Positions 60,517 through 63,219 of a stretch of 64,000 nucleotides of DNA are shown one piece after another (positions within the stretch are counted from its first letter, which is position 1; each line of letters opens with the position of its first letter). Both the position numbers and the translations under genes were made by a program. The DNA comes from an uncultured Acidimicrobiales bacterium (GTDB taxonomy: Bacteria > Actinomycetota > Acidimicrobiia > Acidimicrobiales > SZUA-35). The stretch covers positions 124,001 to 188,000 of the forward strand of contig CALKZY010000018.1 of NCBI GenBank assembly GCA_938002965.1, given 5' to 3'. The notes beneath the pieces are model-generated. The model had not been told where the DNA came from and searched no databases. It was given only the letters and a program-made list of their open reading frames with translations.

Positions 60517-61029
60517 CTACCCGCTAAATGATCCGTATTGCCCCTTATAGAAGACCATCGGTGACTCCTCACGGTCAGTTTCCAGGCTCAGCACCCGCCC
60601 AACGACTAATTGATGGTCGCCGGCGTCGGAAACCCGGTCGACTACGCAGTCGATGATGGCATGCACATCAGGCAGGACTGGGGCGCCGCTCCCACCAGCC
60701 ACGGTGGTGTCAACGCCGTCGAACTTATCTTCGGCCTTTGAAGCCATCACTCCGCAGAGTTCGATCTGATCGTGGCAAAGAACATTCACACAGAATGAAC
60801 CGGCATCAACGATTGGACCCAAACTGCCCGAGTTCGATCCAAGGAAGAAACCCACGAGCGGGGGGTCAAGCGAGATCGACACGAATGAGCCGATGGCCAC
60901 CCCGACGGGACGATCGGCTCCGGGCGTACCTGTCGAGGTAACAACCGTGACCCCTGTGGGAAAGTGACCCAACACACGACGAAACTCGGCCGGATCGATG
61001 TCAGCATGGCTCTGGGACTCTTCGCTCAT
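60517..61029 (-). CDS. Flavin reductase-like FMN-binding protein
   Basis: A 170-residue protein starting EESQSHADIDPAEFRRVLGHFPTGVTVVTS, the usual opening of the split-barrel flavin reductases (HpaC/ActVB-like). Further marks: VGVAIGSFVSISLDPPLVGFFLGSNSGS, GSFCVNVLCHDQ and HQLVVGRVLSLE. The family supplies reduced flavin to monooxygenases. It lies on the minus strand, divergent from the thioredoxin-fold gene at 61087, and is not obviously operonic with it. Confidence 0.88.
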   Translation of the reverse strand: MSEESQSHADIDPAEFRRVLGHFPTGVTVVTSTGTPGADRPVGVAIGSFVSISLDPPLVGFFLGSNSGSLGPIVDAGSFCVNVLCHDQIELCGVMASKAEDKFDGVDTTVAGGSGAPVLPDVHAIIDCVVDRVSDAGDHQLVVGRVLSLETDREESPMVFYKGQYGSFSG

Positions 61030-61086
61030 GCAGCCGATCATAGACGAGCACACGGCTGGTGAGCTGATTCGATCTGGCTCGATTCC

Positions 61087-62601
61087 ATGGGCTGCAATAG
61101 CATTGGGGTTGTGACAACCTCCACACCGGCGCAGAGCCCGTCAACATCAGACACTCCCCGGCCGACGGATGGACTTGTCGCCGTCGTCAAACGCGACTGT
61201 CCGACGTGCGAGTTGGTGGTTCCGGCTCTAATCCAGCTACACAACGACCTGGAGAGCAAGGGGTCAATGCTGACCGTTTACACCCAGGACGACCCGACTT
61301 TTCCTTCGTTTGGCGCTTCACCCATCGACGACACCCAACTATCGTTCTCATGGCACCACGACATCGAGACCGTGCCGACGCTGCTTCGATTCGAAGACGG
61401 CAGTGAGGTCGGGCGTGTCGTGGGATGGTCCCGACCGCAGTGGGAGTCCTTCACCGGCGTAGCCAACCTCGGCCTCGATCTCCCCGAGCACCGCCCCGGC
61501 TGCGGATCACTTTCGGTCGATCCGTCCCTGACCGATGAGCTTGCGGTCCGATTTAACCAATCGGCTTTACACGCCCGTCGGGTCGAGTTCGCCGCCCTTG
61601 AAGACGAGTTCGAAGCAATGTTCGACCGAGGTTGGACCGACGGACTACCGGTTATCCCACCGACGGAGGCACGCGTTCTGAAAATGCTGACCGGCACCGA
61701 TCAGGACCCCCAGACAATCGTGGCCCGAGTGCCGCCCGATTTGAATGACGTGACGATTGAGCAGGTGGCGGTGAACGCCGTGATGGCAGGAGCCAAGCCT
61801 GAGTACCTGCCGGTAATTCTGGCAGCGGTGCAAGCTGCTTGTTCCGATAAGTTCAACATGCACGGTCTCCTGGCCACCACGTTCTTTTCCGGCCCGATCA
61901 TCGTCGTGAACGGCCCGATCACCAAACGCATCGGTATGAATAGTGAAGGAAACGTCTTCGGACAAGGGAACAGGGCCAACCTGACCATTGGTCGAACGCT
62001 TCAACTCGTGATCCGAAATCTCGGTGGGGGTCGCCCGGGTGAAATCGACATGGCCGCTCATGGCTCGCCCGGCAAGTTGGCTTTTTGCTTTGCCGAACGA
62101 GAATTCGATTCGCCCTTCGAACCTTTGGCCCAATCCCGAGGCATTGATTCGGACCAGAGCGCAATCACGTTGTTTGCCGGGCACGGTCCAAGCGGAATCG
62201 TCGATCAGCTTTCTCGAACACCGGAGTCGTTGGCCAGATCGTTGGCCGACGGTCTTCGTTCAACCCACCACTCAAAGCTGGCCATCGGATTCGACGCCAT
62301 GCTGGTCGTATCTCCCGAACATGGAAGAATATTCACCGAAGCCGGATGGGACCGCGAGCGACTGATGACCGAACTTGACACGCTGTTGACCCTGGAGGCC
62401 GACGACATGCTCCGCGGGGCGAACGGCATCGCTGAGGGCCTTCCCGAGAAGTTGGCTGGCCACAAGATCCCAAAGTTCAGACCCGGCGGTCTGCTGATCG
62501 CCCACGCCGGAGGCAATGCTGGCCTGTTCTCTTCCATCCTCGGCGGCTGGGTCGGCGGCGGTATGGGTAGCGCTCCAGTCACCGTACCGGTGGGCTCGTA
62601 G
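61087..62601 (+). CDS. Thioredoxin-fold protein with large C-terminal domain, partner of the selenoprotein
   Basis: A 504-residue protein. Residues 28-125 are thioredoxin-like, with KRDCPTCELVVPAL (Cys38, Cys41) and the cis-proline strand in IETVPTLLRFEDG. After a Cys-containing connector, residues 165-500 form a domain I cannot name. It has RGWTDGLPVIPPTEARVL, VRVPPDLNDVTIEQVAVNAVMAGAKPEYLPVILAAVQAA, FFSGPIIVVNGPITKRIGMNSE and a Gly-rich end (GGWVGGGMGSAPV). A GTG at 61111 is an alternative start. The gene is 69 bp upstream of the UGSC selenoprotein on the same strand, which suggests a redox pair; no biochemical function is known to me. Confidence 0.72.
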   Translation: MGCNSIGVVTTSTPAQSPSTSDTPRPTDGLVAVVKRDCPTCELVVPALIQLHNDLESKGSMLTVYTQDDPTFPSFGASPIDDTQLSFSWHHDIETVPTLLRFEDGSEVGRVVGWSRPQWESFTGVANLGLDLPEHRPGCGSLSVDPSLTDELAVRFNQSALHARRVEFAALEDEFEAMFDRGWTDGLPVIPPTEARVLKMLTGTDQDPQTIVARVPPDLNDVTIEQVAVNAVMAGAKPEYLPVILAAVQAACSDKFNMHGLLATTFFSGPIIVVNGPITKRIGMNSEGNVFGQGNRANLTIGRTLQLVIRNLGGGRPGEIDMAAHGSPGKLAFCFAEREFDSPFEPLAQSRGIDSDQSAITLFAGHGPSGIVDQLSRTPESLARSLADGLRSTHHSKLAIGFDAMLVVSPEHGRIFTEAGWDRERLMTELDTLLTLEADDMLRGANGIAEGLPEKLAGHKIPKFRPGGLLIAHAGGNAGLFSSILGGWVGGGMGSAPVTVPVGS

Positions 62602-62670: not shown

Positions 62671-63219
62671 ATGACCGAAGCCAAACAACATCCGGAGCAA
62701 CCGACGAACGTCGTCGTCCTCGACCCGACAGCAGGTAGAGCCGCAGCCGGCCTTTCGGCAGCCACGCGACCCGTCTCCCTGGAAGGCAAGACTGTCGGCC
62801 TGCTCGACATATCTAAACCACGGGGCGACGTGTTCCTCAGCCACCTACAGCAAGGTCTTGAACGTCGTGGCGCCGTCGTGCGCACCTACCGCAAACCGAC
62901 GTTCTCCAAACCTGCACCGGTTGATCTCCGACAAGAAATCGCCAGCCAGTGTGATGCTGTCATCGAGGCCCTAGCCGATTGAGGCAGCTGCACGTCGTGC
63001 AGTGTGCACGACTCAGTGGACTTTGAACGGCGCGGAGTCCCGGCCGTCTTCGTCTCCAGTGCTGTGTTCGACGAAGCCGCCCAACAACAGGGCGACGCCT
63101 TGGGCTTTCAGCCCCAACGGGTCTTTGTGGAGCATCCGATTCAGGATCGGACGGACGATGAAATTCGCCAGTTGGCCGATCGGGCCGTCGACAGCCTAAT
63201 CGCAGCGATAACGGCATAG
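62671..63219 (+). CDS. UGSC-type selenoprotein with in-frame UGA (Sec104)
   Basis: The frame runs from the ATG at 62671 to the TAG at 63217-63219 (182 residues) and is broken only by a TGA at 62980-62982. The text before it (VDLRQEIASQCDAVIEALAD) and after it (GSCTSCSVHDSVDFERRGVPAVFV) is in the same frame and protein-like, giving A-D-U-G-S-C-T-S-C. That is the defining motif of a selenoprotein family I recall from marine metagenomes, in which U is sometimes Cys. A SECIS-like stem-loop begins 11 nt after the TGA. N-terminal VVLDPTAGRAAAGLSA and EGKTVGLLDISKPRGDVFLSHLQQ are also typical. Taken as two pieces the halves would look like a truncated 103-residue and a 71-residue ORF. SelB, SelA, SelC and SelD are not in the window. 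Confidence 0.85.
62994..63012 (+). promoter_or_regulatory. SECIS-like stem-loop downstream of the UGA codon
   Basis: A perfect 8-bp stem (GTCGTGCA/TGCACGAC) with a 3-nt GTG loop, starting 11 nt after the TGA. Bacterial SECIS elements are short stem-loops with a G in the loop that SelB binds at this distance. A competing hairpin (CTGCAC/GTGCAG at 62988-63002) overlaps it. Confidence 0.75.

Follow-up and report, generated by a model that had tools for sequence, protein, structure and literature searches.

Background

The UGSC family of selenoproteins has been in print since at least 2008, when it appeared in the GOS survey (PMC2398784). The passages of that paper covered here assign a thioredoxin-like fold to UGSC and describe its fusion to a domain termed Unknown_1. 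UGSC is also included in PMC9312934, as far as the part of that publication covered here goes, and the corresponding sections of a 2026 review (PMC13188914) give it with the NCBIfam model NF041046, with functions largely uncharacterised.

The window analysed here is a stretch of 64,000 nucleotides from the genome of an uncultured Acidimicrobiales bacterium, a draft assembly (91.46% complete, 6.12% contamination). A reading made from its letters had proposed a UGSC-family selenoprotein hidden by an in-frame TGA. On the gene directly upstream, the main way into the function, this sequence-only reading was silent. Here, we show that UGSC is paired, and in many Cys-form relatives naturally fused, with the product of this gene, the partner, and that Cys and Sec are exchanged at position 139 of the partner. 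The window protein itself is a new member of the UGSC family already known. Coordinates of the features are collected in Table 1.

Table 1. Features of the UGSC locus (positions in the window)
Feature	Position	Strand	Basis or remark
Divergent flavin reductase-like gene	60517..61053	-	Syntenic in many relatives; functional link is a candidate
Partner P0002, 504 aa, Trx-like N-terminus and ~330-residue domain	61087..62601	+	Profiles, model, synteny
Codon TGC of partner Cys139	61501..61503	+	TGA at this position in nine related genomes
UGSC-family selenoprotein, 182 aa, Sec at residue 104	62671..63219	+	Both halves match PF24696
In-frame TGA read as selenocysteine (U104)	62980..62982	+	Homologues and sel genes
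SECIS-like hairpin, 8-bp stem	62994..63012	+	11 nt past TGA

Results

The UGSC reading frame

A single frame runs from the ATG at 62671 to the TAG at 63217-63219, interrupted by the TGA at 62980-62982 alone. On readthrough, U104 stands in the context ALAD-U-GSCTSC; frame and translation thereby confirm the motif A-D-U-G-S-C-T-S-C. A plain ORF list gives two ORFs instead, 62671-62982 (103 aa) and 63004-63219 (71 aa), the truncated protein and spurious downstream ORF that had been foreseen for automated annotation. Against cut-offs of 25 and 125 bits, the readthrough protein scores 157 bits with PF24696 and 154 bits with NF041046, respectively, and the proposed family assignment stands. Moreover, each half matches PF24696 alone: residues 16-103 before the TGA with 63.7 bits (3.1e-17) at profile positions 2-92, and the 78 residues after it with 72.8 bits (5e-20) at positions 94-171. 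Conservation therefore continues past residue 103; its loss there had been named by the sequence-only reading as speaking against selenocysteine.

The window protein and its relatives carry Sec or Cys within U/C-G-S-C. Dozens of distinct homologues likewise have TGA at this codon, and relatives with Cys in place of U104, the search for which had been suggested, were found at 48 loci from named genomes. One subfamily has the second Cys of UxxCxxC replaced by Trp (UGSCTSW). A 3.4-Mb relative (G050) has ten UGSC matches, pointing to family expansion.

A sequence search for solved-structure relatives of UGSC returned none. The structure model of a natural fusion of Cys-form UGSC and partner (L098, from Phytohabitans suffuscus) shows alternating strands and helices in the UGSC domain, with weak matches to other alpha/beta folds; no thioredoxin is among the 50 fold matches listed.

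Selenocysteine machinery and distribution among relatives

The genome of the window contains the genes for selenocysteine synthesis and insertion that the sequence-only reading had proposed to look for: selA, selB, selC and selD are all present, and the absence of selB and selC that would have counted against it did not occur. The tRNA-Sec scores 66.3 bits, over the Rfam cut-off, is called tRNA-SeC with anticodon tca by ARAGORN and sits near the end of contig C57 (bases 142-233). SelA reaches 392.9 bits; SelB adjoins it and, scored together with its neighbours in the frame, reaches 253.7 bits (contig of 125,538 bases). SelD, on a contig of 130,164 bases, reaches 364.9 bits with one in-frame TGA (G000:C17:47905-48840, L018). 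This enzyme of Sec synthesis thus probably contains Sec itself.

UGSC is present in 82 of 148 related genomes, and among the matches listed only two, one in G056 and one in G090, are devoid of an internal stop; both read DCGSC. SelA was matched in 98 of the 148 relatives (E <= 0.001), in 93 over cut-off. At this E-value, fragments included, and among genomes that are related and not independent, a SelA match accompanies UGSC in 78 of 82 relatives, as compared to 20 of the 66 lacking UGSC. The four UGSC genomes without a SelA match are G039 and G100, draft genomes that are 84% and 78% complete, G055, whose UGSC match is weak (9.2e-7), and G090, where the one UGSC match read of two is the Cys form.

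A SECIS-like hairpin

The perfect 8-bp stem-loop described 11 nt after the TGA is present, with strands 62994-63001 and 63005-63012 and the loop GUG at 63002-63004. The RNA from 62980 to 63020, folded as had been suggested, has no unusual energy (z -0.43; 58 of 200 shuffles as good or better). Longer stretches gave z -0.86 (62980-63030; 39/200) and z -2.16 (62960-63040; 7/200), and the short stretch 62977-63012 folds otherwise than the described stem. Hairpin energy was rejected as proof of a SECIS on account of the z of -0.43, and covariation was used in its place.

In an alignment of 64 distinct UGSC sequences, 97.7% of the 512 cells of the stem are paired, and both sides are changed in 13 cells, at three of the eight pairs. 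None of 500 shuffles equals the stem in paired percentage, cell count or covariation score, 4 of 500 attain each of two further measures, and slid stems score worse. The Trp-bearing subfamily contributes a C-G to G-C double change. Pair 16-32 is broken in eight of the sequences and pair 15-33 in four, and in 10 of the 64 homologues, with 42 nt folded alone, the stem is not the minimum fold. We conclude that the stem is under selection at the RNA level, its compensatory changes marking it as a SECIS-like element despite an ordinary energy. A divergent UGSC paralogue (L133, G136:C17; motif UGSCSSSSVLD) has a SECIS stem with a U-A to A-U double change.

The upstream gene encodes a thioredoxin-fused partner

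The stop codon of the partner gene P0002 lies 69 nt upstream of the UGSC start on the same strand. Its N-terminus (residues about 29-125) contains C38-P-T-C41, takes a thioredoxin fold in the structure model (mean pLDDT 89.9) and matches thioredoxins both by profile (best 6.2e-5) and by Foldseek (best 4.4e-4). A conserved Cys139 lies beyond it. As a single sequence, P0002 reached no Pfam or NCBIfam cut-off, and the domain of about 330 residues, large and conserved, was matched by no model of either collection. Outside the thioredoxin part, fold searches with the models of P0002 and L098 returned nothing stronger than weak matches, and searches by sequence for solved-structure relatives of the domain gave chance-level matches only. 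Class I fumarase came up as a fold relative with E 9.3e-4 but a TM of 0.21, and was not relied on.

P0002 was matched in 84 of 148 relatives and covers 80 of the 82 UGSC genomes; two genomes have UGSC without a partner match and four a partner without UGSC. At the level of loci, the partner domain was found at 27 of 30 UGSC loci with flanks of up to 1.5 kb (none in L020, L024 and L030), and beside UGSC at all 48 Cys-homologue loci, with the matches at most 429 nt apart. The latter include loci of actinobacteria, sphingomonads, haloarchaea and a Gracilibacteraceae MAG, the culturable Sphingobium wenxiniae (L091) being one Cys-form carrier, and at 23 of the 48 UGSC and partner share one uninterrupted frame. 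The model of one such fusion (L098; mean pLDDT 86.3, pTM 0.88) fits two domains that are placed in a defined way relative to each other. C38, C41 and C139 are kept in 31 of 31 aligned partner rows with a fused thioredoxin domain, two of them with a TGA at 139 that was read as C; 17 other aligned rows have no thioredoxin domain. At three loci, from haloarchaea and a Gracilibacteraceae MAG (L081, L082, L106), a DUF6282 gene follows the UGSC-partner pair.

Selenocysteine in the partner

Among the matches listed for 395 genomes from the class, at least nine partner genes have a single in-frame TGA (G091, G132, G329, G358, G404, G435, G447, G467, G479). These genomes share one family label (f54) and comprise four genera. 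In all nine the TGA aligns with Cys139 of the window partner (PG-U-GSL) and the aligned frame is otherwise open on both sides. The UGSC genes of the same nine genomes are TGA-bearing too, so that two adjacent genes each have a Sec codon. G383, with two TGA listed, was not counted as a Sec partner since its aligned region is open, and the same applies to the four TAG rows that were read (G225, G281, G166 and G310).

An 8-bp stem 3' of the partner TGA has on average 7.7 of 8 pairs in the nine Sec genes versus 5.1 of 8 at the corresponding place in 45 Cys genes. Its covariation consists of one double change, and 50 of 500 shuffles did as well, which with nine related sequences is a weak test. Seven NCBIfam models touch the 48 partners at E <= 0.1, with no selenoprotein family among them. 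The sections of PMC13188914 covered contain 'PGU' twice, both times as VPGUxxT of another family, and list no PG-U-GS partner that we found. The Sec-form partner may be a selenoprotein not yet listed, or may have an earlier listing such as GOS_A of the 2008 survey.

Gene neighbourhood

In the lineage of the window, the UGSC-partner pair is flanked by the flavin reductase-like gene and, at its opposite end, by mutY, an order mostly kept though not in every relative looked at. The neighbourhood of this subfamily is housekeeping-like (mutY, an RseP-like gene and a hexapeptide gene). The flavin reductase gene directly adjoins the partner in the window and in L183; a metallo-beta-lactamase-fold gene lies between the two in L185, L187, L190 and L127.

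The neighbours of the Cys form are of catabolic type. Central plus-strand and very long ORFs were removed, which left 187 candidates with some restored by hand, and 132 ORFs from 31 of the 48 Cys-form loci were hand-chosen out of the filtered ORFs. Given as raw counts without a background from random loci, they include CoA-transferase III (7), FCD regulators (7), acyl-CoA dehydrogenase (6), LysR (6), ABC permease (5) and 2-hydroxyacid dehydrogenase (4). Counted likewise without background, genes for thioredoxin reductase and/or thioredoxin lie beside the pair at 5 of the 48 named loci (L088, L093, L095, L112, L119), with more distant matches in L098 and L115; 86 loci in all were searched for these genes.

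Relationship to GrdB and PrdB

GrdB-like proteins from the same class were read through their own TGA and profile-aligned to UGSC by hhalign. Ten short PrdB/GrdB-like proteins, one of them of the window's own genome (L162), aligned Sec on Sec with an E-value of 4.3e-7 and a probability of 92.7, and five full-length GrdB-like proteins with 1.4e-4 and 53; these E-values come from chosen pairs, uncorrected for a database search, and the full-length set has five rows. PF24696 touches one protein in each of the two groups, below cut-off (E 0.03 and 0.08). The GrdB/PrdB model PF07355 does not match the window protein, GrdE (PF09338) has no match in the window's genome, and a sequence search for solved-structure relatives of the GrdB-like proteins returned none. 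The partner was considered as a GrdE or GrdB homologue and rejected, as the comparisons gave no kinship. By these profile alignments, UGSC has a remote kinship with the Sec-bearing part of the GrdB/PrdB reductases.

The frame of L162 (G000:C32:75457-75696) halts at a TGA that is followed by conserved sequence (VPV-U-PVC); judged by this, it is probably another selenoprotein of the window's genome. A second PrdB/GrdB-like match lies at G000:C1:45819-46121.

Discussion

The sel genes, the conservation of both halves and the covariation of the stem support decoding of the UGA as selenocysteine, and we hold it as nearly certain that the window protein is a UGSC selenoprotein. Alternatively, translation could truly end at the TGA, or the TGA could be an error of sequencing, and what follows it in frame a relic; the source is indeed a draft assembly with 6.12% contamination and its tRNA-Sec near a contig end, and the energy of the hairpin alone is not significant. 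An error or relic would have to recur at this codon in dozens of homologues, with both halves conserved and compensatory changes in the stem, and the Cys in the one UGSC match read of G090 goes together with the missing SelA match; we give this explanation next to no weight.

Its earlier description as a redox protein of unknown substrate is a fair one. As to what the protein does, we lean towards a two-protein, thioredoxin-driven selenol reductase of a small substrate, in which direct contact between UGSC and partner, the electron route and the reductive chemistry are the portions that we infer. In this mechanism U104 would be the catalytic selenocysteine of UGSC and C107 the likely resolving thiol, and the domain of about 330 residues would probably supply the substrate site. 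The U104 selenolate would attack a small organic substrate bound at the interface with the partner, and the resulting selenenyl species or adduct would be resolved by C107. Electrons would arrive via the thioredoxin-like CPTC domain fused to the partner, and Cys139 would serve as a relay or carrier in between: Cys139 and then C38/C41 of the partner would reduce the resolved UGSC, and cellular thioredoxin reductase would close the cycle. Going further, and with more reserve, UGSC and partner could represent a class of its own among selenol/thiol reductases, new, GrdB-like and driven by thioredoxin, in actinobacteria, proteobacteria and haloarchaea, the partner being an unlisted selenoprotein (PG-U-GS) in some lineages and the two Sec residues from adjacent genes constituting one relay.

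A general thiol:selenol antioxidant function, with UGSC and its thioredoxin-fused partner as a disulfide or peroxide reductase without a dedicated small-molecule substrate, would likewise suit the UxxC motif and the thioredoxin fusion. It would also suit the housekeeping-like surroundings of the window's subfamily, and the 2026 review, in the sections covered, puts UGSC in one sentence with thioredoxin-like proteins (PMC13188914). We regard it as rather unlikely, since the partner brings a large, conserved domain, Cys-form relatives lie among genes of catabolic type (by raw counts) and several UGSC copies occur per genome in relatives, which suggests different substrates. Handling of a metal or metalloid, for instance an organomercurial or arsenical, by the Sec and Cys of UGSC has a counterpart in another multi-selenoprotein operon (SAO), which the covered part of PMC13188914 reports as proposed for organometallics; as none of the 25 Pfam families found most often in the 132 neighbouring ORFs is a metal-resistance family, we consider it highly improbable here. 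The thioredoxin-driven reduction of a small substrate is the reading that we favour. The near-constant partner, the fusion, the thioredoxin domain and the Cys/Sec exchange make the function of UGSC directly testable.

Compared with known systems, the locus is closest to the UGSC family as described (PF24696/NF041046): the motif is the same, Sec or Cys stands at the same place, and the window protein itself shows no difference. A thioredoxin-fused partner is, however, not described in the passages of the UGSC literature covered; the Unknown_1 domain of the GOS fusion may correspond to the partner domain found here. With GrdB/PrdB (PF07355) the locus shares a remote profile homology, Sec on Sec, and a thioredoxin link, according to the role given to thioredoxin in the part of PMC13188914 covered, and UGSC may work like GrdB although it is not classed as GrdB. 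It differs in that the window protein lacks PF07355, the genome lacks GrdE and the partner is unrelated to GrdE, and the chemistry may therefore differ from that of glycine reductase. The partner resembles thioredoxin in its CPTC motif and in the modelled fold, yet carries, joined to this fold, a domain that no Pfam or NCBIfam model matches, and has an additional conserved Cys/Sec at 139. What appears to be new compared to these systems is the partner and its Sec form, which offer a concrete lead to the function of the functionally unexplained UGSC family.
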